Below are positions 231 through 37,506 of a stretch of DNA of 40,955 bases, piece by piece. Both the position numbers and the translations under genes were made by a program. The notes beneath the pieces are model-generated. The model saw only the letters and a program-made list of their open reading frames with translations, ran no database searches and was not told where the DNA came from. This DNA comes from Actinomycetota bacterium (lineage in GTDB: Bacteria; Actinomycetota; Thermoleophilia; Gaiellales; Gaiellaceae), in NCBI GenBank assembly GCA_005883355.1, contig VAXG01000029.1, forward strand, positions 14,445-55,399, written 5' to 3'. Each line of letters begins with the position of its first letter. Position 1 is the stretch's first letter.

Positions 231-2810
231 CTACTTGATCGTGAAACCGACCGTGCGGACCGTCGGCGGCCCGGCATCCGTCGCGAAGGCGACCAACCTG
301 AGCTGATAATCGCCGCTTCCGAGTACGGAGCCTGTCGGGTCGCGACCGGTCACCCCGAACGAGTAGCGACCCGGCAGCACGTCGCGGAGGCGCGCAAGGA
401 GTCCGATGCGGCCGCGGTCGCGGCTCCACAGTTCGAGGTCGAGGCGGGACAGCGGCAGCACGTCGGGCTCGCCGGCCGCACGCCGGACCGAGCCCGCGAC
501 GAAGCTCAGCAGCGCAGGTGCGGCATCCGAGGGCGAGAACGCGTGCGTCGAAAGGCGAACGGAGCCGAGGCCCGCGGGGACGCGTGGCCCGAACGTAATC
601 GTCCACGGCACGCGGATTTCTCTGCCCGCGGCCGGCGTGACGATTACGACGCCCTCCGCGGGCGCCGTGCCCACGAGCTTGCTCGTCACTCGCGCGCGAA
701 CCTGGACCCGGATCGATGTTCCGGGATCGAGCGACACATGCTGCGGGCTGAGCTTGAATTGAAGCGAGGCGGCTCCCTCGCGAGAGACACGGGCGTCGAG
801 CGAGAGGATGAGTCGGCGGAAGGACACGTTCCGGAGGACGAATTCCTGATTTTCCGTGTGCCAGTTTCGGCTGCCGGCTCGGCCGAGAGCAAGCGATGCG
901 GGGCTCGCGCCGACCTCGGTGGCGGTCGCACCCCCGAGGTCGATCAGTCCCACTCCTTGCGCCGTGACCGGATCGTCGGGAAGCGGTCGTGCCGCGCCCA
1001 CGAGCAGGCTCTTCAGCGCATCCGCGTCGAGATACGGGCGCGCCTGTGCTAGGAGCGCGGCCGACCCGGCGACGAGCGCCGCCGCCGCGCTGGTCCCGTT
1101 GACGGTGCCATAGCGAGCGGAGCCGTCGGCGTTGGCTCCCGGCTCGGCTGTCTCGAGTGCGACACCGGGCGCGACGACCTCCGGCTTCACGCGTCCGTCG
1201 AATGCCAGTCCTGTCGACGAGAAGCCCATCACTCTCCCCTCGCCTGCATTCGACTCGGTGTGCACTGCGCCGAGCGAGAGGGTTGTCTGCACCCCGCTGC
1301 GAATTCTGTCCAGGAGCGCATGTGCGACGTCAACGGGAACGGACACCGCCGGTATCGGAGTGCGCTCGTCGAGCCCGATCCCGCCCGCCGGAAGATCCGC
1401 GCCGTAGAACAGCACCGCGACGGCTCCTGCCTGAGCCGCGTTCGCGACCGCTCCATTCGGATCGATTCCGGCAGGGACGAGCGCCGCGCGGCCGGCGACG
1501 AGGCTGGAGCCGCGGCGATCGAAGAAGTCGAGCAGCGGGACGGCTCCTTGATAGCCGGCGGGCTCGGTCGTCTGCGATCTCGGCCCACCGATGCCGACGT
1601 CGAGCGGCCGCGTCGGCGTGACCGCTCCTGCAAGTGGTCGCATCGCGTCGAGCTCGACGCGAAGTCCTGCGCGCAGCACGACACGCACCTGGCCGAAGCG
1701 TGGTCGTAGGTCCACCGCACCGACCGTCAACACCGCCGGCGACCCTCCTGGGCCCGCGACGCTGCCATACCCGGGTCCGGCAGAGCCATCGTTCCCGGCG
1801 GGAGCGACGACGAGCGTGTCGAGTCGAGTGGCACCGGCGGCGGCAAGTGCAAGGGGCCCGTCGGCAAATCCCGCGAACGGCTCCCCGACGCCTATCAGTG
1901 CGACACGCGCGGCATCGTGAGCATCGCCGTCGCCGTTCGGGTCGACTGCACGTTCCAGCCCGGCGAGAACCTGATCCGTGCGTCCGTACACAGCCCAGTT
2001 CGCGCTCGCGTCTCGCTGCCACCCGGCGACGCGGATCGGGAGCACCGTCGCACCGGGCGCGACCCCCGCCAGGGCCCCGGGACCGCCGGAGCCGACGAGC
2101 AGGCCCGCCATCTCGGTTCCGTGCCGCTCGAGCTGCGCAGGCTCATCAGGTCGCGCAGCGGCCAGCGCGCCGGCCTCGCCACCGACGATGTCGATGCCAC
2201 TCGCGACACGGCCGCGCAGGAAGGGCTGAGCGCGATCGACCCCCGTGTCGAGTAATGCGATCGTCACGCCGCGGCCGTCCTTGTCGGAAAGCCCGATGTT
2301 GGGGCGCTCGCCGAACGGGGAGCTCGTCAGGAGTCCGGAGCTGAGCGAAGCCGGATACGCGGCGCGAACCGGATAGACGCCCGCGACCTCCGGGGCACGT
2401 TCGAGCAGCGCGATGCCCCGCGCGTCGAACGCCGCCGAGAAACCGTTGACGGTGCGTGTGTAACTGAACTCGGGCTGGACGATGACGCCCTGGACGCGCA
2501 GGCGCGCGACGAGCAGCTTTTGCGACGAGAGGGCGGTCTGCATCCATCGGCGCTCCTCTTCGTCCGTGGCCAGGCCTCCGACACGGCCGACGCGATCGGC
2601 TAAGGCCGGTGTCTTCAGCAGGACGATGACCCGCTGGCCGACCGCGACGCGCGGACGTTGTGCGCCTGCTAGCCCCTGCCAGCTCGGCTCGCCCTGCTGG
2701 ACGACGCCCTTGCTGCCACCTCCTGCGGCAATGAGGACCCCAGTGACGACGACCGCAAGAGCCGCAAGCACCAGGGCGTTGAACGGCTCACGCGGTGGAC
2801 GCGTAGGCAT
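231..2810 (-). CDS. Secreted subtilisin-like serine protease (S8) with PA insert
   Basis: About 859 residues. A basic start followed by a hydrophobic segment (residues 9-30) gives export or an N-terminal anchor. Residues about 52-150 resemble the I9 propeptide. The catalytic triad is visible: Asp188 in ALLDTGVD, His230 in RHGTEMAGLL, Ser574 in VNGTSAAAALVAGSAALL, with oxyanion Asn340 in PAGNDG. Residues about 370-515, between Asn340 and the catalytic Ser, look like a PA (protease-associated) insert. The last about 250 residues are beta-rich with no catalytic motif. I chose the ATG at 2808-2810; a TTG nine bases upstream is also open. Neither has a clear ribosome site, and the gene overlaps the end of tsaD by 23 bases, so it is probably translated by coupling. 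Its substrate cannot be inferred. Confidence 0.88.
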   Translation of the reverse strand: MPTRPPREPFNALVLAALAVVVTGVLIAAGGGSKGVVQQGEPSWQGLAGAQRPRVAVGQRVIVLLKTPALADRVGRVGGLATDEEERRWMQTALSSQKLLVARLRVQGVIVQPEFSYTRTVNGFSAAFDARGIALLERAPEVAGVYPVRAAYPASLSSGLLTSSPFGERPNIGLSDKDGRGVTIALLDTGVDRAQPFLRGRVASGIDIVGGEAGALAAARPDEPAQLERHGTEMAGLLVGSGGPGALAGVAPGATVLPIRVAGWQRDASANWAVYGRTDQVLAGLERAVDPNGDGDAHDAARVALIGVGEPFAGFADGPLALAAAGATRLDTLVVAPAGNDGSAGPGYGSVAGPGGSPAVLTVGAVDLRPRFGQVRVVLRAGLRVELDAMRPLAGAVTPTRPLDVGIGGPRSQTTEPAGYQGAVPLLDFFDRRGSSLVAGRAALVPAGIDPNGAVANAAQAGAVAVLFYGADLPAGGIGLDERTPIPAVSVPVDVAHALLDRIRSGVQTTLSLGAVHTESNAGEGRVMGFSSTGLAFDGRVKPEVVAPGVALETAEPGANADGSARYGTVNGTSAAAALVAGSAALLAQARPYLDADALKSLLVGAARPLPDDPVTAQGVGLIDLGGATATEVGASPASLALGRAGSRNWHTENQEFVLRNVSFRRLILSLDARVSREGAASLQFKLSPQHVSLDPGTSIRVQVRARVTSKLVGTAPAEGVVIVTPAAGREIRVPWTITFGPRVPAGLGSVRLSTHAFSPSDAAPALLSFVAGSVRRAAGEPDVLPLSRLDLELWSRDRGRIGLLARLRDVLPGRYSFGVTGRDPTGSVLGSGDYQLRLVAFATDAGPPTVRTVGFTIK

Positions 2811-3756
2811 CGAGGCCAAGATAGCCGGGATAGTGGATGGGGTTGGAGAACCGCGCAGCCGAGGCGATCATGGCCGCGTTGTCCGTGCAGAGCGCGAGTG
2901 GCGCGGCCCTGGCTTCAGCCAGAGCGGCCCTCAGCTCGGAGTTCGCAGCAACGCCCCCTACCACAGCGATCCTGGTCGCTCCGATCTGCTCCGCGGCTTG
3001 TCGTGTCCGCTCCACGAGCGCCCGGACGATTGCGCGCTGATAGCTCGCGGCCAGATCGGCTCGGCGGCGTTCGCCCTCTTCAGCCGTCAGTTTCCTGACG
3101 GCGTACAAGAGGGCGGTCTTCAGACCGGAGAAGGAAAAGTCGAGCCCCGGGACGCGCGCAACGGGAAATGCGTATGCGCTCGGGTCGCCATTGCGAGCGA
3201 CGTGGTCGAGCTCGGCGCCTCCGGGATAGCCGAAGCCGAGGAGGCGCGCTCCCTTGTCGAATGCCTCTCCCGCTGCGTCGTCGAGCGTGGCGCCGAGCAC
3301 GCGGGGTTTGCCGTTGCGCTCCTGGACGTCGAGCAGCATCGTATGGCCACCGCTCGCCAGCAAACACAGGAACGGCGGCTCGACTGGATCCGGCTCGAGA
3401 TAGAGCGACGCGACATGGCCTTGCAGATGGTCGACCGCCGCGAGAGGCAGCCGCCGCGCCCAGGCGATCGCCTTGGCGGCGGCGACACCGACCAGGAGCG
3501 CACCGATCAGCCCGGGTCCCGCCGTCACTCCGACGAGGTCGACGTCGTCGAGCGTGGTCCCCGAATCGCGCAGGGCCTCCTGCACGACCGGCGTGACCAG
3601 CTCGAGGTGGCGACGCGACGCCACCTCCGGCACGACACCGCCGTAACGGGCGTGCAGATCAGCTTGCGACGAGACGACGTTCGAGAGGATCCGCCCATCC
3701 GGTGTGATCACCGCCGCGGCGGTCTCGTCGCAGGAAGTTTCGATCCCCAGGATCAT
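2788..3756 (-). CDS. tsaD: tRNA N6-adenosine threonylcarbamoyltransferase TsaD
   Basis: 322 residues, close to the usual 335-345. TsaD transfers the threonylcarbamoyl group from TC-AMP to A37 of ANN-decoding tRNAs, together with TsaB and TsaE, in the cytoplasm. Visible marks: MILGIETSCDETA at the N-terminus (ASKHA phosphate-1 motif), the metal ligands His110 and His114 in VDHLQGHVASL, FSGLKTALLY, VVGGVAANSELR, and the late metal-binding Asp292 in LCTDNAAMIAS. In many high-GC Gram-positives tsaD directly follows tsaE-tsaB-rimI. Here a nuclease gene on the other strand (3826-4245) separates it from rimI, so it must have its own promoter, in the 69 bases before 3756 or inside the nuclease gene. 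The start follows no strong Shine-Dalgarno. Confidence 0.97.
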   Translation of the reverse strand: MILGIETSCDETAAAVITPDGRILSNVVSSQADLHARYGGVVPEVASRRHLELVTPVVQEALRDSGTTLDDVDLVGVTAGPGLIGALLVGVAAAKAIAWARRLPLAAVDHLQGHVASLYLEPDPVEPPFLCLLASGGHTMLLDVQERNGKPRVLGATLDDAAGEAFDKGARLLGFGYPGGAELDHVARNGDPSAYAFPVARVPGLDFSFSGLKTALLYAVRKLTAEEGERRRADLAASYQRAIVRALVERTRQAAEQIGATRIAVVGGVAANSELRAALAEARAAPLALCTDNAAMIASAARFSNPIHYPGYLGLDAYASTA

Positions 3757-3812
3757 GCGCGTTCGCTTCGCGAAGGCGCCAACTGGTTACAGACACGGCG
3801 CAGACTTCGCGT

Positions 3813-3818
3813 TAACTT
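3813..3818 (+). promoter_or_regulatory. -10-like hexamer of the ERCC4 nuclease gene
   Basis: TAACTT (form TANNNT) ends seven bases before the GTG at 3826, with no Shine-Dalgarno in between. Transcription would begin at or within a base or two of the start codon, giving a leaderless mRNA. No convincing -35 is visible. This spacing supports GTG 3826 as the start. Confidence 0.4.
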
Positions 3819-3825
3819 TGTCCCC

Positions 3826-4245
3826 GTGCCTCCGGTTCCCATTCGAGCCGACGTATTTGAGAGACGCAGCGAAATCCCCCGGTTCCTCGGAGAACTCGGC
3901 GCATTAGTTCGCATGGAACGGCTTCCGGTCGGTGATTACGACGTTGGGGGCAACACGCTCGTGGAACGGAAGAGCGTTCTCGATCTGCACAGCTGTCTCG
4001 TGACGGGACGTTTGTGGACTCAAATCGGAAACCTGCGAAAAGAAGCTCGATATCCCTTTCTCTTAGTCGAGGGCCGAGACATCGATCATGGTCCCCTCTC
4101 GCCCTCTTCCCTACGCGGGGCATGTCTGTCAGCGATGCGTCTCGGCATCAGGTTCATTCAGACAAAGAACCAACGCGACTCAGCACTCTGGATGTACAGG
4201 TTGGCGACATTGTGTCAGCGCCGCCCTGGTCCACATGCCAGCTAG
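3826..4245 (+). CDS. Stand-alone XPF/ERCC4-family nuclease domain protein
   Basis: 139 residues consisting of one ERCC4 nuclease domain, the fold used by XPF, Mus81 and archaeal Hef to cut branched or flap DNA. The diagnostic motif GDx(n)ERKx3D is complete: Gly36-Asp37 in VGDYDVGG, Glu47-Arg48-Lys49 in LVERKSVLD and Asp53. It is followed by GRLWTQI, as in eukaryotic XPF, and by the core strand YPFLLVEG. There is no helicase part and no C-terminal helix-hairpin-helix pair, so DNA targeting must come from elsewhere or from a homodimer. The open frame continues far upstream, but only as the antisense of tsaD; similarity begins at the GTG 3826. By hand count 3841-4080 is about 56% GC, against about 70% in neighbouring tsaD, which suggests acquisition by transfer. 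Its stop overlaps the rimI stop by four bases. Confidence 0.85.
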   Translation: MPPVPIRADVFERRSEIPRFLGELGALVRMERLPVGDYDVGGNTLVERKSVLDLHSCLVTGRLWTQIGNLRKEARYPFLLVEGRDIDHGPLSPSSLRGACLSAMRLGIRFIQTKNQRDSALWMYRLATLCQRRPGPHAS

Positions 4246-4730
4246 TCGCTCGCAGCATCGCTGCGAGCGACAGGATCTCGCCACATGATCAACGCGTCTT
4301 CACGATTATCGGTGTAGTAGCCGCGTCTGACTCCGCGCGCTTTGAAGCCGGCCTGTTCGTACAGCTTGATCGCTACGTCGTTCGACACCCTGACCTCCAG
4401 TGTGTACCCCCGACGCGTTTCTCCGCCGGTTAGCTCGAACAGCCGCTCGAGCAGTCCGCTGGCGACGCCCTTGCGCCGGTGTTCCGGCGCAACGGCAAGG
4501 TTCATCACGTGCCACGCATCGACGTAGCGCGAGATGATCAGATAGCCGAGTAAGTCGCGCGTGTCGGGCTCGAATGCGCCGAGGGAGATCGAGGACGGCT
4601 TGGCCAGCTCGCCCGCGAACATCGACCGCGACCAGGGCGTTGGATACGAATCGCGCTCGATCGTCTCGATCGCATTCAGGTCGCGCAGCTCGAGACGACG
4701 GAAGTCCACCCGATTCGCAGTCGTACTCAT
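4242..4730 (-). CDS. rimI: Ribosomal-protein-S18-alanine N-acetyltransferase-like GNAT protein
   Basis: 162 residues with the GNAT fold. The acetyl-CoA motif is clear (LAVAPEHRRKGVASGLLERL), preceded by the beta4 strand and followed by YTLEVRVSN and LYEQAGFK, which carry the Glu and Tyr used by RimI. RimI acetylates the N-terminal alanine of protein S18; RimI homologues in tsa clusters may have broader N-terminal substrates. The ATG overlaps the tsaB stop in ATGA, so translation is coupled. The 3' end overlaps the oppositely oriented nuclease gene by four bases, the point where the tsa operon is interrupted. Confidence 0.9.
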   Translation of the reverse strand: MSTTANRVDFRRLELRDLNAIETIERDSYPTPWSRSMFAGELAKPSSISLGAFEPDTRDLLGYLIISRYVDAWHVMNLAVAPEHRRKGVASGLLERLFELTGGETRRGYTLEVRVSNDVAIKLYEQAGFKARGVRRGYYTDNREDALIMWRDPVARSDAASD

Positions 4731-24351: not shown

Positions 24352-27114
24352 ATGTCGATCACGACAGACCTGGAACCACATCCGGCCGCGTCGTACTCTT
24401 CATACGTGTCGGGCAGCTTGCCCACAGGCACCGTCACCATGCTCTTCACGGATGTCGAAGGCTCGACGCGCCTGCTCGGCGAAGTCGGCCCCGCCGAATA
24501 CGCAGACGTCCTGAAGGAACAGCAGCGACTCATCCGGCAGACGGCGGCCGAGCATGACGGCATTGAAGTCGACACTCAAGGCGATGCGTTCTTCTTCGTC
24601 TTCCGTTCGGCACGTAGCGCAGCCGCGTGCGCGCAGAGCGCACAGGAGAGGCTCGCGAAGACGTCTGTCAGGGTGCGAATGGGACTTCACACGGGAGAGG
24701 CGCTGCTCGTGGACGGTCGCTACGTGGGGATGGATGTCCATCGTGCCGCGCGCGTCGGTGCGGCCGGCCACGGTGCTCAGGTCCTGCTTTCACCGGCGAC
24801 GGTGGCGTTGCTCGAGCCGGAATCCTTTCAGCTGCGCGATCTCGGACAACATCGGCTGAAGGATCTCTCCGACCCGATCCGTCTCTACCAGCTCGGAACG
24901 ACGGACTTCCCGCCGCTCAAGACGCTCCACCGGACGAATCTTCCTGTGCCGGCAACACCCTTCCTGGGGAGGACGCGTGAACTCGCGACGGTGATCAGGC
25001 ACGCCGCCGATCCTTCGGTCCAGCTGCTCACGCTGACAGGGCCGGGCGGGACCGGCAAGACGCGACTCGCGCTTCAAGCCGCCGGCGAGCTCGCCGAGCA
25101 GTTTCCCGGAGGAGTGTTCTGGGTGCCGCTCGCGCCCCTCCGAGACTCTCGTTTGGTCGCGTCCGCGATCACGGAGGCACTTGGATTCGAACACGAGGGC
25201 GATGACGACAGCATCGATTCGATTGCGAGCGCGATCGACTCCCGCACACTCTTGCTGGTCGACAACTGTGAGCATCTCCTCGATGGCGTGGCCGCGGTGG
25301 TCCGAAAGATCGTCGGCGTCCTTCCTGATCTTCAGATCGTCACGACGAGCCGTGAGCCACTCTCGCTTGGAGGCGAACGTGTGATTCCGATCGACCCGCT
25401 CCTGCGATCGGACGCGGTCGCGCTCTTCAGGACGCGCGCGGAGGCGGCCGGCGCCACTATCCTGGACGACGATGTCGTCTCGACGTTGTGCGCACGTCTT
25501 GACGATCTCCCGCTTGCGGTCGAGCTTGCGGCCGCGCGTGCCGCCGCACTTCCCCCGCGGCTCCTCCTCGACCGGCTCTCGGACCGGCTCGACCTGCTCC
25601 GCGGTCCGCGTGATGCCGACGAGCGCCAGCGCACCCTGCGGGCGACGATTTCATGGAGCTACGATCTGCTCGGTCCCGAGGAGCAAAGGCTCTTTCGATG
25701 GTTGTCTATTTTCGCCGGCGGAAGCGCACTCGACGCCATCGAGGCAGTCACAGATGCAGATGTCGACGACCTCGCCTCGCTCTGTGCGAAGAGCCTCGTG
25801 CGGATGACCTCGACCCCCCGTGAGCCCCGTTACTGGCAGCTCGAGACAATCAGGGAGTTCGCAGACGAGCAACTGATCGCAGCGGGCGAAGCCGAGTCAG
25901 TCCGCGCCCGGCACGTACGTTGGTTCGCGAGCCTCGCTTCAGAGGCGGATGCACACCAATGGGAGGTCGACGCCGCAGAGTGGCTCGAGCGCCCCGAAGC
26001 AGATCTCGGGAATCTCCGGGTCGCGTTCGCACAGGCCCTGATGTCCGACCCGGGGGCGGCAATCGCGCTCGGCTCATTCCTCGGGCACCTCCACACGTTG
26101 CGGGGCCGGTATCCGGAAGCAGAGGGCGTGCTCGAGCAGGCGATCGGCCTGGCCGACGACCCCGTGCGCGGGTCACTGCTCCGTCGCCGCCTCGGCTATC
26201 TCCTCGTCCGCCGCAAACAGATGGCGGGCGCCGCGGCGATCCTCGCCGAAGCAGAGGAATTCCTCGGACCGCCGGGCAATCACGCCGACGAGTCGTACTG
26301 GCGGGCGTGGTTCGACGTGAAGGTCGGGCAGGGGAATCTCCACTACTGGAGCGCCGACACGGTTGCGCTCGGACGGGTGGCCGAGGAGATGCGTCCGCAT
26401 GTTGAAGACCATGCCACTACGAAACAACGCGCCGAGTTCCTGAGTCTGCTGCTCTTGAACGCGTGCCGCCAGGAGCGATACGTGTTGTCGGCAGAGTCGG
26501 AGGAAATTGCGAGAGCGGCCTACGCCGCATCGCAAGAAGCAGGCGACTGGGACGCCGAGTTCCAGCTCGGGTTCGCGCTGCTGTGGCGGGGAAAGATCGA
26601 GGAGGCCGAGCGGCATCTACGGGCCGGACGCGACGACGCACACGTGGTCGGAGACGTCCTCACCGAGATTCGTTGCCTTGTCTACAGCTCGATAGCCCGG
26701 CGAAAGCTCGGTGACGTGGAGGGCGTCCAGGCCCTCGCCGAGGAGATTGCGAAGCTCGAGGACACCTACGGCTACACCGGCCTCGTCGACGGCAACCGGG
26801 CGTGGCTTGCATGGCGAAAGGGTGACAGCGGGGCCGCCGAACGTTGCGCAAACGCTTCGCTGTCAAACATGTCGGCGACCGGTCCCTCAGGACCCGGCTT
26901 CTTCCAGTGGACGGCGCGATTTCCGCTGCTCGCCGTCTGCGTCGAGCGCGACGAGCTCGCAGCAGCTGCTCGACATGCGGTCGCCATGCTCGACGAAACC
27001 CAACAGCCGCTTCCCCCGGAGCTCGAGTCCGCCCTGCGAGAGGCACTCGACGGCGGAAGCCGACGGGCTTTTGCCCGCGCGCTGGAGCTTGCAACGGCGG
27101 CTGGTTACGTCTGA
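24352..27114 (+). CDS. Cyclase-homology/STAND ATPase/TPR regulator
   Basis: 920 residues in three parts. Residues about 24-190 are a class-III nucleotide cyclase homology domain with metal Asp34 (LFTDVEGSTRL) and Asp78 (TQGDAFFF). Residues about 205-500 are an AfsR/LAL-like STAND ATPase: FLGRTRELATV, Walker A TGPGGTGKTRLA, Walker B TLLLVDNCEHLLD, VTTSREPLSL, LDDLPLAVELAAAR. The rest is a TPR-like helical array. In the cyclase domain the purine-selecting Lys is Asp74 (VDTQGD) and the transition-state Asn is His (MDVHRAARV), so catalysis is doubtful. No LuxR-type helix-turn-helix is seen at the C-terminus (ends LELATAAGYV). ATG 24352 follows GAGGG closely. It lies 48 bases after the phosphoesterase gene. 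Confidence 0.9.
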   Translation: MSITTDLEPHPAASYSSYVSGSLPTGTVTMLFTDVEGSTRLLGEVGPAEYADVLKEQQRLIRQTAAEHDGIEVDTQGDAFFFVFRSARSAAACAQSAQERLAKTSVRVRMGLHTGEALLVDGRYVGMDVHRAARVGAAGHGAQVLLSPATVALLEPESFQLRDLGQHRLKDLSDPIRLYQLGTTDFPPLKTLHRTNLPVPATPFLGRTRELATVIRHAADPSVQLLTLTGPGGTGKTRLALQAAGELAEQFPGGVFWVPLAPLRDSRLVASAITEALGFEHEGDDDSIDSIASAIDSRTLLLVDNCEHLLDGVAAVVRKIVGVLPDLQIVTTSREPLSLGGERVIPIDPLLRSDAVALFRTRAEAAGATILDDDVVSTLCARLDDLPLAVELAAARAAALPPRLLLDRLSDRLDLLRGPRDADERQRTLRATISWSYDLLGPEEQRLFRWLSIFAGGSALDAIEAVTDADVDDLASLCAKSLVRMTSTPREPRYWQLETIREFADEQLIAAGEAESVRARHVRWFASLASEADAHQWEVDAAEWLERPEADLGNLRVAFAQALMSDPGAAIALGSFLGHLHTLRGRYPEAEGVLEQAIGLADDPVRGSLLRRRLGYLLVRRKQMAGAAAILAEAEEFLGPPGNHADESYWRAWFDVKVGQGNLHYWSADTVALGRVAEEMRPHVEDHATTKQRAEFLSLLLLNACRQERYVLSAESEEIARAAYAASQEAGDWDAEFQLGFALLWRGKIEEAERHLRAGRDDAHVVGDVLTEIRCLVYSSIARRKLGDVEGVQALAEEIAKLEDTYGYTGLVDGNRAWLAWRKGDSGAAERCANASLSNMSATGPSGPGFFQWTARFPLLAVCVERDELAAAARHAVAMLDETQQPLPPELESALREALDGGSRRAFARALELATAAGYV

Positions 27115-29775: not shown

Positions 29776-32700
29776 CTAACTCGAATGCAGCCGGCGCTTC
29801 GCGACCTGGAGGAGCTCGTCGATGCCGCCGCAGATATCGCAGTGGTAGACCCGAATCGTGCCGTCTTTGCTCGCCGTGATGATCGTCCGGCCGTCACGCC
29901 CGCCGAACGCTGCTCCGATCAAAGGCCTGGAATGGCCATGAAGCAGTAGCAGCCGGCGCCCGGTCGACACCGAGCCCACACCTGCGGTGCTCGGGCCTGC
30001 GGTCACGACCCAGCGACCGTCACGGCTGAAGGCGGCTCCGCCGAGCGGCCCGAAGTGCCACCGAATGACCTGCTTCGGAGGCCCTCCGTGCACATCCCAG
30101 ATTCGTGCCTCGTGGTCCGCGCTTGCAGTAAGCAGCAGGCTCGCATTCGGCGAGAACATCACGGCGGTGATCGCGGCCTGGTGAGCCGAGAACGCACGCA
30201 GCATCCGTCCTGAGCCCAGTTCCCAGAGCCGGACCGTGCCCTTGCTGTCCCCGCCAGCAAGGAGGGTTCCGTCGGGACTGAAAGCGACTGCGGTCGCGGC
30301 GAGACCCTTTCCACCCAGAACCTGCTCGCGGCCGCCGGCTCCCCGAATCGCAACCGAGCCGTCACTCCGTCCGCGCGCGACTCTGTTCGTGCGGTCGGAC
30401 ACGGCAAGGCTAAGCGTGGGCCGCGTGGCGACGATGGGACCTCGCGGTCCGAACGCAACGGCAGTAACGGGTCCGTGGATCCGCACTGATCTGAGCACGC
30501 GTCCTCGCCCGACCTCGCGCACTCGTGCGACTCCGCTAGCGTCGCCGGTGATGACGCGCCTGCCGTCGGCGCTCAGGCCGAAGGCGGTGAGCGACGGTTG
30601 GCGCGCGGCCATCCGGAGATCTGGCTCCGTCTCGGAAGCCCAGAGACGTGCAGTTCCGTCCTCGCTCGAAGTGAGAACCAAGCGACCGTCGGGGCTGAAT
30701 GCGACTGAATTGATCGCGCCGTTGTGCCCCAGCAGGATTCTGACGGGCTTACCGCTCGCCAGTCCCGTACGGGCCTTGGTGTCGCGGCTTCCGGTCGCGA
30801 TCGCCTTGCCCGTGGGATTGAAAGCGATCTTGGTCGTGGGGTTGGAGTGGCCGAACATTATTCCGCTCTGGAATCCCGTCCGCGCTTCCCAGATCCGCGC
30901 CGTGCCGTCCGCAACCGCTGCCGCGACCAGGATTCCATTCGGACTGAAGACGGCATCGATAATCGAACTGCCCGGCTCCGGGCCGCGGAGGACCTGGATC
31001 TGCCGATCGGTCACCGTCGACCAGACGCGCACGACGCCTTCGTGGCCGCAGGTAAGGAACGACGACCCATTCGGGCTGAAGGACGCACACTGGACCAGAC
31101 CCTTGTGTTCCAGCCGGCTCACGAGCAGCCCCGTGAGGAGCGAGTACACGCGGGCGAAACGATCCTGCCCGAACGTGACCAACAGGTTCCCCTTCGGACT
31201 TACCGCGCCCCCTTTCGCCAGAGCCTTACCCTGGGTTCGGATCGTCCGGAGCAACTTCCCGTCATTCGACCGCCAGAGTCGGATGAGTCCGTTGCGCGCG
31301 ATCGTCAGCACACGCAGTGAATGACTCACGAAGAACGCAGTCGTGACCGGGCCTCCCGCGTCGAGCCGCTGGAGCGGAGAGTCACCTGCTCCCCAAATTC
31401 GAGCTACGCCGTCCCGGCCAGCCGCCAGGATCAGTTGTCCGTCGCCGTTGTAGGTCGCGGCGGTGACCGGGCCGCCGTCATCGAGGATCCGCTCCGGAGT
31501 GCTGGAGCCGACGCGGTAAACCCGGACTTTCCCGTCCTTCGAGCCGGTGACGACGTGCCCTCCGGACGGGTCGAACCTCGCGATGCGGACGGGGCCGTCC
31601 GCCCGATAGACCGCGCGTTGCTGAGCGGCCAGGAGGGCATCCCGTAGGACGTCTTCCTCGTGTACGCCGCGTTCGAGCTGTGCCGCCTGGATTGCGAGCT
31701 CGATGCTTCTCTGGGGATCCACATCGAGGAAGCTGTTCGCGGCAGCGGCGAGCTCGCGTGCGTGCGCGCGCCGGGCCTGGGCGCGAGAGTGGCTCCGCTC
31801 GACGAGTGCAAAGACGGCGATGGCCGCCACCAGGACGAGGCCGACCAGTGCTGCCGTCGCGACGCCGAATGCGCGACGGCGACGACGCTCGGCGTCATGA
31901 ACCGACCGTTCGGCGCGGTAACGGGCCCCCCAATCCGCGACTGCGTCGGCGAGCACATCGTGATAGATCTCGTATCGAGTGCCTGCGCCGTCGTCGGAGC
32001 TCGCGCGAACGATCCGCTCGGCGGCAAGTCGCCGCAAGACGTCGGCGGCCTCTTGCTCTTCGATATCGGCGTAGCCGGCGAGATCGCGCGTCCGATGTGC
32101 GATCTTTGATCCGGAAGGTGTGACGAGAAAGTTGTACATCGCTGCCGCGGCATCCTTCTGCCGAGGCGAAAGATCGGCCATCGCATGCTCGAGATGGTCC
32201 TCGACGATCCGCATGGCGCCCCCGAGCTCGGCCAGAGTCTCCCGCCGAAGCAACCTCGATCCCCGATCCGCCTCCACCTCCCACAGCCTGCTCATCACAA
32301 GCTGCAGATACGGCGCCTCGATGCGATCGTCGTTGCTCGGGGCGGTTACGACACCCCGACCGAGCGCGCCGAGTTCGACCCGCCCAGCCGCGACCTCGTC
32401 GAGGACAGCCACGACGAGAGCCGGCTCCACCTCGACCCGACGTTCGGAAGGAACGAGCTCGTTGAAGCGCTCCAACGGACCGCGGATCGCTGCTTCCCCG
32501 CCCGCACGGTCGAGGTTCTCCAACCTCAGCCGGTTCGACAAAAGGTTGGGAATCGCCGCCTTGAAGGCGTCGAGCAAGGCCAGAGCGTCTTCTCGTATTC
32601 CGATCAGCACGTTCACACGCAGGTCCGGACGGCGAAGCACGGCGGCCAGCTCCTCGACGAACGTGCGATCACCCTCGTGGTAGAGAAAGAACTCCTCGAA

Positions 32701-33024
32701 TTGATCGAGCATCAGATAGATGTCGCCCCCCGTCCGTGGTGCCAGACCCGCGAGCGCTTCGACGGGATCTCCGATCCAGGAGGAGTGAATCCGCACGTCG
32801 ACGCCGGCTTCCTGTCGGAGCTTGTATGCGACGCCCGCTCGAAGCACGGATGTCTTTCCGACACCGGTGGGTCCGAACAGGACGGTCACCCGCGAGGCCA
32901 TGAGGTTCGCCGCGATCACCTGGCTATCCCGATCGCGCCCGAAGAAGAACAGTGCGTCGACACCGGAATCTTCGAACGCAGCCAGGCCCTTGTAGGGCGA
33001 GGAGGGAGCCGGCACTTCGCTCAT
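29776..33024 (-). CDS. nSTAND1 NTPase - membrane helix - WD40 propeller protein
   Basis: 1082 residues. The N-terminus SPYKGLAAFEDSG...ALFFFGRDRDS is the nSTAND1 entry motif. Walker A is LFGPTGVGKTSVLRAG (residues 49-64) and Walker B IYLMLDQFEEFFLY (Asp107). A winged-helix-like region around 290-375 follows. One membrane helix, FGVATAALVGLVLVAAIAVFAL, lies at about 391-412 after an RRRRR stop, then the helical ELAAAANSFLDVDPQRSIELA segment and about 14 WD40 blades to the C-terminus (AVAFSPDGTLLAGGDSKGTV is typical). A few blades have lost the WD pair (for example ATGSRDTKARTGLASGK). The switch-like NTPase is likely cytosolic and the propeller is a candidate sensor across the membrane (inference). 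It overlaps the SARP-SIR2 gene by ATGA. Confidence 0.93.
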   Translation of the reverse strand: MSEVPAPSSPYKGLAAFEDSGVDALFFFGRDRDSQVIAANLMASRVTVLFGPTGVGKTSVLRAGVAYKLRQEAGVDVRIHSSWIGDPVEALAGLAPRTGGDIYLMLDQFEEFFLYHEGDRTFVEELAAVLRRPDLRVNVLIGIREDALALLDAFKAAIPNLLSNRLRLENLDRAGGEAAIRGPLERFNELVPSERRVEVEPALVVAVLDEVAAGRVELGALGRGVVTAPSNDDRIEAPYLQLVMSRLWEVEADRGSRLLRRETLAELGGAMRIVEDHLEHAMADLSPRQKDAAAAMYNFLVTPSGSKIAHRTRDLAGYADIEEQEAADVLRRLAAERIVRASSDDGAGTRYEIYHDVLADAVADWGARYRAERSVHDAERRRRRAFGVATAALVGLVLVAAIAVFALVERSHSRAQARRAHARELAAAANSFLDVDPQRSIELAIQAAQLERGVHEEDVLRDALLAAQQRAVYRADGPVRIARFDPSGGHVVTGSKDGKVRVYRVGSSTPERILDDGGPVTAATYNGDGQLILAAGRDGVARIWGAGDSPLQRLDAGGPVTTAFFVSHSLRVLTIARNGLIRLWRSNDGKLLRTIRTQGKALAKGGAVSPKGNLLVTFGQDRFARVYSLLTGLLVSRLEHKGLVQCASFSPNGSSFLTCGHEGVVRVWSTVTDRQIQVLRGPEPGSSIIDAVFSPNGILVAAAVADGTARIWEARTGFQSGIMFGHSNPTTKIAFNPTGKAIATGSRDTKARTGLASGKPVRILLGHNGAINSVAFSPDGRLVLTSSEDGTARLWASETEPDLRMAARQPSLTAFGLSADGRRVITGDASGVARVREVGRGRVLRSVRIHGPVTAVAFGPRGPIVATRPTLSLAVSDRTNRVARGRSDGSVAIRGAGGREQVLGGKGLAATAVAFSPDGTLLAGGDSKGTVRLWELGSGRMLRAFSAHQAAITAVMFSPNASLLLTASADHEARIWDVHGGPPKQVIRWHFGPLGGAAFSRDGRWVVTAGPSTAGVGSVSTGRRLLLLHGHSRPLIGAAFGGRDGRTIITASKDGTIRVYHCDICGGIDELLQVAKRRLHSS

Positions 33025-34649
33025 GCTGTGGTCTCACTGAGCACGATGCCGGCGTACCGCGCCAGAATTCCCGCGTATTGCTCGAGTGGAAGCTCGTGCA
33101 CCTCGACATCACGCCGCCTCCAGAATTCCCGCTCGAGCGGCATCGGCTGTGGTTGCACTGCCCACGAGCGATAACTCAGAGGCTGATCGCTCCAGAGCCG
33201 GTTCAGAATCACGCGGAGATTCCAGTCCGCCATCGTGTAACCGAGAAAGAGAAAATGACTACGCCGTAGCTTGGCTGCCAAGGACACGGGCACGGCGCCG
33301 GTGAGATCGGTCTGTGCCAGATAGTCGATGTAGTCGTCCTCGGTGACCACGAAGCTCTCCCATTCACGCTCGGCCCCGCGATCGACTTGGCCGTGAAGCT
33401 TGAGGATGACCGTGCGCCGCTCGAGTGAAAGCTCCGTGGCGTAGGTGTTCGGCAGATCGATGAGCCGGCCGCGGCCATCGGGGGTGATGTGGCAGAACTT
33501 GCCTCGGGCCGGGCCGGTCGCGATGTAGGAGACGACGTCGAACTCTTCGCCTGCTTCGAGAAAGGCGGCCTCGAGGGCGAGATCGTAGCTCGTCGTCACG
33601 ATCAGTTGGTGCGGCACCCCTCGTTCCCGCAAGACTGGAGGAATCGACGCGAAGAACCGGTGAACGGCCGTCGGGGGAACGTCCGCGTCGAGGAGGGCAT
33701 GCAATTCGTCGTAAAGCGGCCCCGAGCCCTTCATCACCGACACGTACTGCGCGACACGTGGAAGCCCGGCTTCGTTCTCCGCATAGTCGAAGCGCTCCGC
33801 GAGCATGCCGGCCAGCTCACCAACATCCGCACCGAGAACGGCAACCAGCCGACCGTCGAGCAAGATCCGAAGCACTTCGTCGAAGTGATCCTCAGCGGGC
33901 GGCGCGGCGTCCGGCGCCCGCAGCCCTGCATCCTGTCGGAGGATCTGACCGTGCAACTGCTGGAGATCGGGGCCGGGCTCGATCCCGAGTTGCTCGACGA
34001 GCGTGCGCCGAGCGTCCTGGTAGGTGTCCAATGCTTCCGCCTGTCGGCCGGAGCGATAGAGCGCAAGCATCAAATGCGCGCGGAGCCGCTCCCGAACCGG
34101 ATATTGGCGGACCAGGGCCTCTAACTCCCCCGTCAGCTCGCTGTGACGGCCTGCCTCCAGATCGGCGTCGATCCGCTCCTCCAGCACAGCCAGCCGCTCT
34201 TCCGCCAACCGTGTGATCTCCGATTGCGCGAAGGCCTCGAACTCGACGTCGGCGAGAGGCGGCCCGCGCCAGAGGTCGAGGGCGCTCTGCAGGATCGAGG
34301 CGCGGTCATCGGCCTCAGGCTCGGCGCGAGCCTCTGCGACCAGCTGCCTGAAGCGCTCGAGGTCGAGCTGTTCCGGACGAATCGACAATGCATATCCCGG
34401 AGGCTTCGTCACCAGAACGTCGGCGCCGACGGTCTTCCGGAGCTGCGAGATGAAGTTTTGTAGCGAGGTCGCGGCCGTCCGCGGTGGCTGCTCGCCCCAG
34501 AGCGCATCGATGAGCCGGTCGGTTGAGACTGGTCTCGGCGCCTCGAGAAGAAGCAAGGCAAGCACGGAGCGCTGCTTCTGGCCGCCCAGCAAGAGCGGAC
34601 CGGTCTCGTCCGAGACCTCGAGCGGTCCGAGGATCCGAAAGTCAGGCAC
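33021..34649 (-). CDS. SARP (wHTH-BTAD) regulator fused to SIR2-like domain
   Basis: 542 residues. Residues 1-92 are an OmpR-like winged helix of the SARP type (FRILGPLEVSD, LLALLLLEAPRPVSTDRLID pattern, TKPPGYALSI). Residues 95-240 are the BTAD helical domain (LWRGPPLADVEFEAFAQSEI, HLMLALYRSGRQAEAL, LGIEPGPDLQQLH). Residues about 255-535 are a SIR2_2-type fold: VAVLGADVG (272-279), IVTTSYDLALEAAF (350-363), ILKLHGQVD with His419, SFVVTEDDYIDYL and RRSHFLFLGYTMADWN. The usual Asn of TTNYD is Ser354. GTG 34647-34649 follows AAGG by five bases. Translation is coupled to the nSTAND1-WD40 gene. The fusion suggests a DNA-bound regulator whose NAD-binding or NAD-consuming domain is controlled by the STAND partner (inference). 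Confidence 0.9.
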   Translation of the reverse strand: MPDFRILGPLEVSDETGPLLLGGQKQRSVLALLLLEAPRPVSTDRLIDALWGEQPPRTAATSLQNFISQLRKTVGADVLVTKPPGYALSIRPEQLDLERFRQLVAEARAEPEADDRASILQSALDLWRGPPLADVEFEAFAQSEITRLAEERLAVLEERIDADLEAGRHSELTGELEALVRQYPVRERLRAHLMLALYRSGRQAEALDTYQDARRTLVEQLGIEPGPDLQQLHGQILRQDAGLRAPDAAPPAEDHFDEVLRILLDGRLVAVLGADVGELAGMLAERFDYAENEAGLPRVAQYVSVMKGSGPLYDELHALLDADVPPTAVHRFFASIPPVLRERGVPHQLIVTTSYDLALEAAFLEAGEEFDVVSYIATGPARGKFCHITPDGRGRLIDLPNTYATELSLERRTVILKLHGQVDRGAEREWESFVVTEDDYIDYLAQTDLTGAVPVSLAAKLRRSHFLFLGYTMADWNLRVILNRLWSDQPLSYRSWAVQPQPMPLEREFWRRRDVEVHELPLEQYAGILARYAGIVLSETTA

Positions 34650-34818
34650 GTGACCTTTGTAACACGGTGTCTTCCTCCTGGATAGCGGCACGTCTGTGCT
34701 GCCGGGCGGCCTGCGCTGAACGATCACGGCCGTTCCTAACCCCCCGCTAATCGCCGCAGTTAGCAGCCCGTGAGTCGGGCGTGAGTGAGCCGTTGCGGCC
34801 CCCTTCGACGGTGGCCGC

Positions 34819-36432
34819 ATGGCTACCTCATTCTTCATCTCAACACGCGGCGCGCTCGCGCGCGCCTGCCTCCCGCTCCTGCTGCTCGTTTCGGTCCTTG
34901 CTCCGGCCGCCGCGAACGCGACGGGTGCGGCCGTCACGGACATCTCCCTGACGAACGGCGGCCGTCCTTTCTCAGGAGACAACCGCCTGCTCACCACGAT
35001 CAGTCCCAACGGCGACGGCATTCGGGACCGGGCGACGATCCACTTCCGCCTGAGGGCAACGGCCGTCGTGCACTTCGAGATTGCCACGGTCGACACTCAG
35101 ACGCCGAAGCAGGTCGAATCGCGGACGATCCGCCTGGGCCCCGGGCGACACTCAATCGTCTGGGCGCCTTCACCCAAAACCGAGCCCCGCACCTACCTCG
35201 CCCTCTTGCGGGTGGGAGGAATCACCTATGGCGCCCGGCGCTACGCGCAGGCCGGCCGACTCATCACACCGGTGATCCGCGTCCGGGGTGTCGACGCGTC
35301 GTTTTCCCAGGAGAGCTATGCCCCGAGGAGCACGGCACGGCTGACGGTCTCCACGGACGCCCGGTCACTCAGGCTCGATGTTCTGCAGTCCGGTCCGGGT
35401 CGCGATCCTCGACTCACGAACTTTGACGTCTTCGGCCCTGTGATGAGCGAGCCGATCACTGTGCCCTGGAGCTATCCGAACTCGCCGCACGCGATCAGCC
35501 TGTCGATCGGAAACTGGCCGAGCGGTGTGTATTTCGTTCGCCTGACGGCGGACGACGGCCGGGTCGGTTATGCACCTCTGATCGTCCGACCGGCGCACCT
35601 CGGCGAGCATCGGGTCGCCGTGGTCATGCCGACGTTCACCTGGCAGGCCTACAACTTCGAGGACGAGAACGGCGACGGGTGGGGAGACACCTGGTACGCC
35701 TCTTGGGACGAACACGCAACCGTACGCCTCGGCCGGCATTACGTCGGCCGTGGCATTCCCCCACACTTCCGTCAGTACGACCTCAACTTTCTTCACTGGC
35801 TGACGTGGCGTGACCGCGGCGTTGACTACCTCACCGACAGTGACATCGCCTCAGGTACGAGTGCTGCAAATCTCGCGCACGCATACGACCTGATCATCTT
35901 TCCCGGCCATCACGAGTACGTCACACCCCGCGAGTTCCGAGTCATGCGCGGCTATCGCAATCTGGGCGGCAATCTCGCCTACCTCTCCGCAAACAACTTC
36001 TACTGGCACACCGTGAGACATGGCGATCGTCTGCTCCGCACCGCGACGTTCCGGTCGCTGGGCAAGCCGGAGGAGGAGCTGACGGGCGCCCAGTATCGCG
36101 CTAACAACGGCGGCCAGCACCAGAAGCCGTGGGTCGTCGTCCACGCCGAGGTTGCTCCGTGGCTGTTCGTCGGCACCGGGCTCCACAACGGTTCGAGCTT
36201 CGGACGGGGCGGCGTGGAGATCGACGAGATCGGAGCGGCATCGCCCGCCGGCACGAGAATGATCGCAACGATCCCGCATGTGATCGGCAACCTGAGCGCC
36301 CAGATGAGCTTCTATGAGAAGAATGGGGCAAAGGTGTTCTCCGCCGGTGCTTTCACCCTCGCCGGACAGGCCACGTCCTCCGAAGTCAGTCCCCTCTTGG
36401 ACAACCTGTGGCGATACATGACGAAGCCCTGA
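34819..36432 (+). CDS. Secreted DMF-hydrolase-beta-like (DMFA2) domain protein
   Basis: 537 residues. The signal peptide LARACLPLLLLVSVLAPAAANA ends near residue 35. Residues about 45-260 are two beta-sandwich domains (ISPNGDGIRDRATIHFRL resembles FlgD-like Ig domains). Residues about 270-535 resemble the C-terminal domain of N,N-dimethylformamidase beta subunit: MPTFTWQAYNFEDENGDGW, YDLIIFPGHHEYVTPREF, YRNLGGNLAYLSANNFYW, then a Trp/His-rich part. In that enzyme this region helps form the iron site; here it is secreted and the substrate is unknown. It is divergent from the SARP-SIR2 operon across 169 bases. Confidence 0.8.
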   Translation: MATSFFISTRGALARACLPLLLLVSVLAPAAANATGAAVTDISLTNGGRPFSGDNRLLTTISPNGDGIRDRATIHFRLRATAVVHFEIATVDTQTPKQVESRTIRLGPGRHSIVWAPSPKTEPRTYLALLRVGGITYGARRYAQAGRLITPVIRVRGVDASFSQESYAPRSTARLTVSTDARSLRLDVLQSGPGRDPRLTNFDVFGPVMSEPITVPWSYPNSPHAISLSIGNWPSGVYFVRLTADDGRVGYAPLIVRPAHLGEHRVAVVMPTFTWQAYNFEDENGDGWGDTWYASWDEHATVRLGRHYVGRGIPPHFRQYDLNFLHWLTWRDRGVDYLTDSDIASGTSAANLAHAYDLIIFPGHHEYVTPREFRVMRGYRNLGGNLAYLSANNFYWHTVRHGDRLLRTATFRSLGKPEEELTGAQYRANNGGQHQKPWVVVHAEVAPWLFVGTGLHNGSSFGRGGVEIDEIGAASPAGTRMIATIPHVIGNLSAQMSFYEKNGAKVFSAGAFTLAGQATSSEVSPLLDNLWRYMTKP

Positions 36433-36460
36433 GACGCCGGCGCGCCATTGGCATCGTCGC

Positions 36461-36488
36461 GCGGCCCGGCTAACCTTGGCCGGGCCGC
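36461..36488 (+). terminator. Strong hairpin after the DMFA2-like gene
   Basis: GCGGCCCGGC (36461-36470) and GCCGGGCCGC (36479-36488) form a perfect 10-bp GC stem with an 8-base loop, 29 bases past the stop at 36432. There is no U-tract, as is common for hairpin terminators in high-GC Gram-positives. It also lies just before the M23 peptidase start. Confidence 0.5.
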
Positions 36489-36504
36489 CTCCGTCCTACC
36501 AGCC

Positions 36505-37506
36505 GTGCGCTTCCGAATCTTCTTCCTCACCTGTGGTCTGGCTCTGTGCGCAAGCGCTACCGCCTCGGCCTACCCGTGGCCGGTCAAACCGTTCAAGGAG
36601 CAACATCCGATCCGCGCGAACTTCGGGGACCCGCGTACGGTCTTCCTCAACACGATGCTCACCGACGGCCTGCAAGGGCCCGGCACCTTCCTCTTCCACA
36701 ACGGCATCGACATCGCCGCGCCCGGGGGGACGCCCGTCTATCCAGTCATCTCGGGGAAGGTGCGCTACATCGACGAATCAGCCATCTCGGTCAAGACGGA
36801 GGGCCGCGGCGTCTTCCAGTACTTCCACCTCGTCGTGAAGGTCCGTGACGGACAGCACGTCGTCGCGGGCAAGACCGTGCTCGGGACGGTCTTGCCTGTC
36901 TATGGCCACGTCCACCTGTCCGAGATTCGTGGCGGCCGGGTCTGGAATCCACTTGCACGGGGCGGCATCGCTCCGTACCGCGACCACACCGTCCCGCAGG
37001 TCCGTGCGATCAACGTGCGCCCCGCAGGTTCGTTGCTGCCGTTCGACTCCGCGACTGTGTGCGGCACCGTTTCGCTCGTGGCCGCTGCGGACGACGTCGC
37101 GCCGATGGCGGTGCCGGGCGTGTTCGCGGGCTTCCCGCTCTCGCCCGCGCTCATCACCTGGTCGCTCGCGAGGGTCTACGGGATCACGTATGTACGCGAC
37201 GCCACGGCAGCCGACTTCCGCACGACGATGCCAAGCTCGAGGTACTTCTGGAGCGTCTATGCACGCGGCAGCTACCAGAACGCGCCCAGGTTCTCGAATC
37301 GCCAGTACTTCATGCCCGGCCGGTTCCTCTACAACCTCGCCAGCTTCGTCGACACGCGCACGTACCCGAACGGGCTGTACGAGATCACAGTGCGGGTCGC
37401 CGACATGCGCGGGAACAGCTCCGACGCCGCCCTGCAGTTCAAGATCGAGAACCGCGCCGGCAGCGAGACCGGCTGTTCGCCTCAGGTTCCGAGCTCGGCC
37501 CCGTAA
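36505..37506 (+). CDS. Secreted M23-family metallopeptidase
   Basis: 333 residues from GTG 36505. The signal peptide FRIFFLTCGLALCASATASA starts at once. The M23 (LytM-like) zinc site is visible: His65 and Asp69 in FHNGIDIAAPGGTPVYPVIS, and His135-x-His137 in VYGHVHLSEI. The glycine-rich turn and order match the family, which cleaves peptidoglycan cross-bridges or acts as a structural activator. About 180 residues after the domain form a beta-rich C-terminal part with unknown role. A TTG at 36448 is also open, but it would place a hairpin in the coding region and the signal peptide 19 residues inside. Its 3' end overlaps the convergent lytic transglycosylase gene by 25 bases. Confidence 0.86.
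   Translation: MRFRIFFLTCGLALCASATASAYPWPVKPFKEQHPIRANFGDPRTVFLNTMLTDGLQGPGTFLFHNGIDIAAPGGTPVYPVISGKVRYIDESAISVKTEGRGVFQYFHLVVKVRDGQHVVAGKTVLGTVLPVYGHVHLSEIRGGRVWNPLARGGIAPYRDHTVPQVRAINVRPAGSLLPFDSATVCGTVSLVAAADDVAPMAVPGVFAGFPLSPALITWSLARVYGITYVRDATAADFRTTMPSSRYFWSVYARGSYQNAPRFSNRQYFMPGRFLYNLASFVDTRTYPNGLYEITVRVADMRGNSSDAALQFKIENRAGSETGCSPQVPSSAP

Follow-up and report, generated by a model that had tools for sequence, protein, structure and literature searches.

What does a SIR2 domain, a part typical of defence systems, do when it is fused to a DNA-binding regulator, and what does the STAND protein encoded directly behind it contribute? This question is raised by a two-gene unit on the minus strand of a 40,955-nucleotide stretch of DNA (contig VAXG01000029.1, positions 14,445 to 55,399) from an actinobacterium of the family Gaiellaceae, referred to here as the window. 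Gene A encodes a SARP regulator with a C-terminal pseudo-SIR2 domain, and gene B a separate nSTAND1 protein with a transmembrane helix and WD40 propellers. The pair is probably best understood as a relay that runs from the membrane STAND–WD40 sensor through the pseudo-sirtuin to the SARP and on to envelope genes, with a probable origin in a conflict pair of SIR2 and STAND proteins.

Gene A (33021..34649, minus strand) is an open reading frame with a GTG start that encodes 542 amino acids. Its N-terminal part (residues 1–240; 33930..34649) consists of the winged-helix DNA-binding domain and BTAD of a SARP (Trans_reg_C, 4.9e-8; BTAD, 6.5e-46 in Pfam), and a Foldseek comparison of the AlphaFold2 model (mean predicted local distance difference test score, pLDDT, 86.8) places this half close to AfsR (8k60), with 44% identity and a template modelling score of 0.91 of the target. 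The C-terminal half (residues ~253–533; 33051..33893) belongs to SIR2_2 (PF13289, 1.3e-20), whose only occurrence in the host genome this is, and it matches the SIR2 enzymes KomC, ThsA, DSR2 and AVAST5 (Avs5; 9nc9 among the matches). The SIR2 fold proposed in an initial sequence-only reading therefore withstands structural comparison. Pfam finds no NB-ARC or STAND domain in the chain, as the large SARP/AfsR class would have; SIR2 is present instead and STAND sits in gene B.

Gene B (29776..33024, minus strand; 1082 amino acids) overlaps gene A by the four bases ATGA (33021..33024) and combines an nSTAND1 nucleoside triphosphatase (NTPase) region (31900..33024; 9e-38), a single transmembrane helix (residues ~390–408; 31801..31857) and WD40 repeats (residues ~469–1061; 29842..31620; 1e-74), the latter probably forming two seven-bladed propellers. 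The Walker A (GPTGVGKT, residues 51–58) and Walker B (YLMLDQFEE, with Asp107) motifs of the P-loop are both intact and, together with the C-terminal sensor repeats, identify a STAND NTPase. The model shows the NTPase followed by beta-propellers with about 15 four-stranded blades, Apaf-1 being among the best structure matches. The membrane helix is found in gene B of all 18 SARP-fused or family-f1 relatives tested and in that of the SARP-less locus L041, and is missing in L070. Its K/R-rich N-terminal flank suggests that the STAND part is cytoplasmic and the WD40 part external. A CxxC motif is also conserved in the last WD40 blade, in relatives as well as at the C-terminus of gene B (consensus YxCxxCG; ~29800–29840); were the WD40 part extracellular, it might form a disulphide or bind a metal. 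A second STAND-type protein, with a guanylate/adenylate cyclase domain, a weak NB-ARC match and TPR, is encoded 2.7 kb beyond gene B (24352–27114, plus strand).

Searches with the SIR2 part in relatives, in class-wide genomes and in one scan of public genome contigs brought together 25 distinct loci from 24 genomes, almost all of them belonging to one actinobacterial family. A convincing homologue is present in four of the ten genomes of the genus and in 24 of 399 genomes of the class. Downstream sequence is readable in 23 loci, and in each of them the nSTAND1 gene lies directly next; the SARP fusion is present in 23 of the 24 with a readable N-terminus. Conversely, when 199 genomes were searched for this nSTAND1 clade, every strong match fell in a SIR2-bearing genome, the next-best matches being unrelated STAND proteins below 50 bits. 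Thus, the association of SARP–SIR2 with nSTAND1 is far beyond chance, and the divergence of the SIR2 part is correlated with that of the STAND part (r 0.81; none of 2000 permutations as high). The sequence-only reading had described this operon and its ATGA overlap and had held that a prevalence of SARP–SIR2 proteins without a STAND partner would speak against its view; the pair is real and conserved, and the homologues carry nSTAND1 next door. No module accompanies the weak class matches in G331:C24 and G271 (L062, L063), plasmid records hold only distant SIR2 relatives, of which that of Nonomuraea alone was shown beside an nSTAND1, and a scan of viral contigs found no relative.

The likely output of the pair is indicated by the DNA between gene A and its divergent neighbour. 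A predicted SARP operator, CAGTTAG-n4-CCGTGAG-n4-GCGTGAG-n4-CCGTTGC (34757..34796, plus strand; heptamers at 34757, 34768, 34779 and 34790), has the form of direct heptamer repeats at 11-bp spacing near the −35 region of a target, as do classical SARP sites, in which heptamers with 4-bp spacers measure 11 bp in all (PMC5930380). It is followed on the same strand by GACGGT (34807..34812), a −10-like box 6 bp ahead of the ATG of the predicted target, a secreted DMFA2_C-like protein of 537 amino acids (34819..36432; PF20254, 7e-51) with a signal-peptide-like N-terminus. The predicted co-target is a secreted M23 metallopeptidase of 352 amino acids (36448..37506, plus strand; PF01551, 4e-8) with the zinc-ligand motifs HNGIDI and HVH. 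The same layout, i.e., four heptamers with the consensus CCGTTAG at 11-bp spacing, a GACGGT-like box and an ATG 6–7 bp further on, recurs in the relatives, in most of which the spacing of the box is kept; 22 of the 23 SARP-fused loci have a clear operator, and L051 has a weak one. The gene divergent from gene A encodes a DMFA2_C-like protein in 14 SARP-fused loci and an M23 peptidase in eight; as an exception, L060 has its M23 gene downstream of gene B.

Scores were obtained by leave-one-out against shuffled sequence in 20 loci, L040, L050 and L060 being kept out of motif building. The window operator scored 27.3, its shuffled versions averaging −4.4 (maximum 7.7), and 19 of the 20 loci stood clearly above every shuffle (18.7–37.7 against means near −5), with only 6.6 for L051; the loci outside training reached 29.7 (L040), 33.8 (L050) and 24.2 (L060). 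Since the operator of L060 lies before the M23 gene and both stand together downstream of gene B, the predicted operator travels with the target and not with the regulator. Moreover, L048 has a second operator ahead of a second M23 gene. The predicted site is also specific within the host: of the 16 places in the genome that fit a loose pattern, the window's own site scores 31.2 and the runner-up 14.8, and no further operator was found elsewhere in the 41-kb window. No site reached the threshold in L041, L069 and L070, all of which lack the SARP, nor is there an operator near 17 unlinked DMFA2_C paralogues (41–48% identical), which likewise have no SARP, SIR2 or STAND neighbours and a single weak WD40 match, in L166. 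Because SARP-operator-type repeats precede a secreted gene in all 23 SARP-fused loci, in one of them weakly, the output of the system is most likely transcription.

Several further features of these intergenic regions were observed. Gene A is preceded by TACAAA (34656..34661, minus strand), a −10-like box 6 bp ahead of the GTG, in a layout kept in most relatives; gene A and the divergent gene are both apparently leaderless in the window, most loci having a −10-like box 6–7 bp ahead of the start codon. In L040 (7932–10514, minus strand) and L050 (862–2997, minus strand), the gene A frame extends upstream into a guanylate-cyclase-type domain ahead of the SARP, and in L040 the operator falls within this frame, leaving the true start ambiguous. 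In L042, the divergent DMFA2_C gene is followed by one for a PQQ-type beta-propeller membrane protein, which L049 also has; about 13 loci contain related frames. SARP-like heptamer operators stand before a small secreted-peptide gene in L177 (G001:C54, ~515), where the site adjoins the end of a TPR-type protein, and in L176 (G009:C141); a second SARP circuit in the genus is possible. In L193 (G028:C18), heptamers lie between a single-chain SARP–cyclase–STAND–TPR regulator (661–4473) and a divergent secreted-protein gene, which suggests that the arrangement of a SARP with a divergent secreted gene is general in these relatives.

The same parts could also serve cell death or defence against phage, set off through transcription: STAND/WD40 would sense infection and the SARP would induce the secreted M23 wall hydrolase, killing or changing the cell. 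Such a role, which the sequence-only reading had entertained, would suit the STAND and SIR2 parts, both of a kind typical of defence, the patchy spread of the module in genus and class, and the WD40 part, the fastest to diverge (33% identity at a SIR2 identity of 76%). Nevertheless, it is unlikely and not favoured here, as the output points to exported envelope proteins behind a dedicated operator, and seven loci (the window, L012, L039, L040, L043, L045 and L049) share a chromosomal neighbourhood, flanked by uvrB on one side, or by coaE together with a gene for an S1-domain protein on the other side, which disfavours a mobile defence island. Moreover, PADLOC gives just weak partial matches to ThsA and PDC-S25.

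The role of gene A within the relay depends on its SIR2 active site. In the window copy, the NAD-binding motif GAGxS/N is replaced by GADVG (residues 273–277; 33819..33833) with deletion of the loop that follows, and the catalytic Asn of TTNxD is replaced by Ser354 in TTSYD (33588..33590), while HG is intact; the protein thus has the fold of a SIR2 NADase effector without its full set of GAGxS, TTNxD and HG/NG motifs. Among 21 SARP-fused copies, compared with the intact relatives L041 and L070 (GAGAN, TTNYD, KIHG; loop present), GAGxN/S is lost in 20, usually together with the loop behind it, the catalytic Asn is changed to Ser, Gly, Ala or Asp in 18, and the active-site His to Gln, Tyr or Arg in nine, the window clade retaining His419. 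The acidic and TED motifs and the Gly of HG are invariant across copies. In Avs5, N110A, or Gln or Ala at the His-equivalent residue, abolishes defence (PMC12931631), and the LQG variant of seven copies carries this same Gln. The ratio of non-synonymous to synonymous substitution rates (dN/dS) in the SIR2 domain is ~0.05–0.15, below that of the SARP part (0.13–0.21) and of the WD40 part, where it is highest (0.19–0.52). Since the active site is degraded yet the domain remains under strong purifying selection, the domain is probably non-enzymatic and probably works as an adaptor in a conserved non-catalytic role. The earlier suggestion of a membrane-gated switch that changes transcription and NAD chemistry together is therefore retained in its first half, as the best reading, and unsupported in its second, given the motif losses in nearly all copies, that of the window included. 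The sequence-only reading had noticed neither the degraded site nor the operator and the divergent secreted-protein genes at 34757–37506.

A regulatory rather than catalytic use of nucleotides is quite improbable: in this case, the domain would bind NAD+, ADP-ribose or a related nucleotide, and the switch would read the NAD status of the cell instead of being gated by STAND alone. The retained fold, the invariant motifs and His419 of the window clade speak for it, but hardly any copy still has the phosphate-binding GAGxN and the loop behind it, and the obligatory STAND partner would be left without an obvious role. An active NADase with transcription as a second output, to which only the complete motifs of one locus (L040) lend weight, is very improbable and was rejected as the principal account on the loss of GAGxN in 20 and of Asn in 18 of the 21 copies, equivalent single changes destroying Avs5 function (PMC12931631).

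In the preferred relay, gene B would be the sensor: its nSTAND1 ATPase, on the cytoplasmic side, would switch state upon a signal, and its WD40 propellers would probably lie on the outer side of the membrane. Gene A would be the output, its SARP acting as the transcription factor and its SIR2 domain, devoid of NAD catalysis, as an adaptor that places the SARP under the control of the STAND protein, which would recruit, oligomerise or release it. The SARP would then bind the four heptamers and control the divergent DMFA2_C-like and M23-peptidase genes. The sequence itself establishes the two-gene unit, the degradation of the active site, the purifying selection and a specific operator; physical contact between the two proteins, the signal, activation rather than repression, and the membrane topology are what we infer. 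As to origin, a conflict pair of SIR2 and nSTAND1–WD40 would have gained the SARP on its SIR2 protein, with the active site decaying afterwards. Intact pairs without a SARP exist (L041 and L070) and cluster together outside the fused ones in the tree (support 98/91), which fits such a descent.

Some observations weigh against this account. L040 keeps the full motif set (GAGVN, TTNYD, HG), and L048 and L060 keep the catalytic Asn, so that the decay deduced from these copies is gradual or repeated. Binding of NAD or ADP-ribose may be compatible with the degraded active site. Among 61 relatives searched, G001:C54 holds strong sites that are not part of the module, ahead of the small secreted-peptide gene, and G028:C18 has a weaker one next to a different SARP. 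The predicted site is thus of a general SARP type and not exclusive to the SARP of gene A. Finally, the direction from ancestor to descendant is only probable, as it is read from two intact loci lacking a SARP and from a tree of poor resolution and uncertain root.

Among known systems, AfsR and the large SARPs (SARP–NB-ARC–TPR; SARP-LAL, e.g., PimR) share with the pair the SARP with BTAD, STAND-controlled transcription and heptamers at 11-bp spacing, the AfsR repeats CGTT(T/C)ATCGNN (PMC10972967) resembling CCGTTAGnnnn. Unlike in these regulators, whose targets are antibiotic clusters, STAND is placed here on a membrane protein of its own, together with WD40 propellers, a SIR2 fold occupies the usual position of NB-ARC, and the predicted targets are envelope genes. 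Avs5 and other SIR2–STAND defence proteins similarly couple a SIR2 fold to a STAND ATPase, but Avs5 is a single chain, whereas the present system comprises two proteins, a degraded SIR2 site, a fused SARP, a WD40 sensor with a membrane helix, and an operator with target genes; PADLOC gives no Avs profile match, and the fusion of STAND to an effector that characterizes Avs (AVAST) is absent. The intact pairs (L041, L070 and, without WD40, Nonomuraea L069) have the same gene order and domain families, but lack the SARP and operator and keep complete GAGAN/TTNYD/HG, and L041 and L070 have no DMFA2_C or M23 neighbour. Apaf-1-type proteins resemble gene B in carrying two WD40 propellers behind the NTPase, but gene B has a membrane helix between the NTPase and the propellers, and its partner is a transcription factor, not a caspase. 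A review of SARP forms lists small, medium (NB-ARC), large (NB-ARC–TPR), SARP-LAL and AfsR types without a SIR2 form (PMC10972967), and a full-text search of open-access papers found no description of SARP or BTAD combined with SIR2, STAND or WD40, in agreement with the sequence-only reading, to which such a split with SIR2 on the regulator was new. The pair can be regarded as a form of STAND-gated SARP, and it is plausible that it amounts to more.

The fuller claim, that a SIR2–STAND conflict pair became a dedicated transmembrane transcription switch in which a dead sirtuin adaptor links a STAND–WD40 receptor to a SARP activator of envelope genes, has about an even chance of being correct. 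As operator, promoter and target are predicted to the base, it is directly testable. If true, an immune effector would have been tamed: its NAD-consuming site would have decayed, while the STAND-coupling surface persisted and was put to new use in driving a transcription factor. The SARPs would gain an input module that is split and bound to the membrane, as well as a predicted target unrelated to antibiotic biosynthesis. Moreover, the SIR2-adaptor STAND–SARP switch would then be a signalling class of its own. Annotation of SIR2 and STAND alone should not be taken as defence, since these loci suggest that parts of a phage-defence machine have been turned into an ordinary gene regulator.

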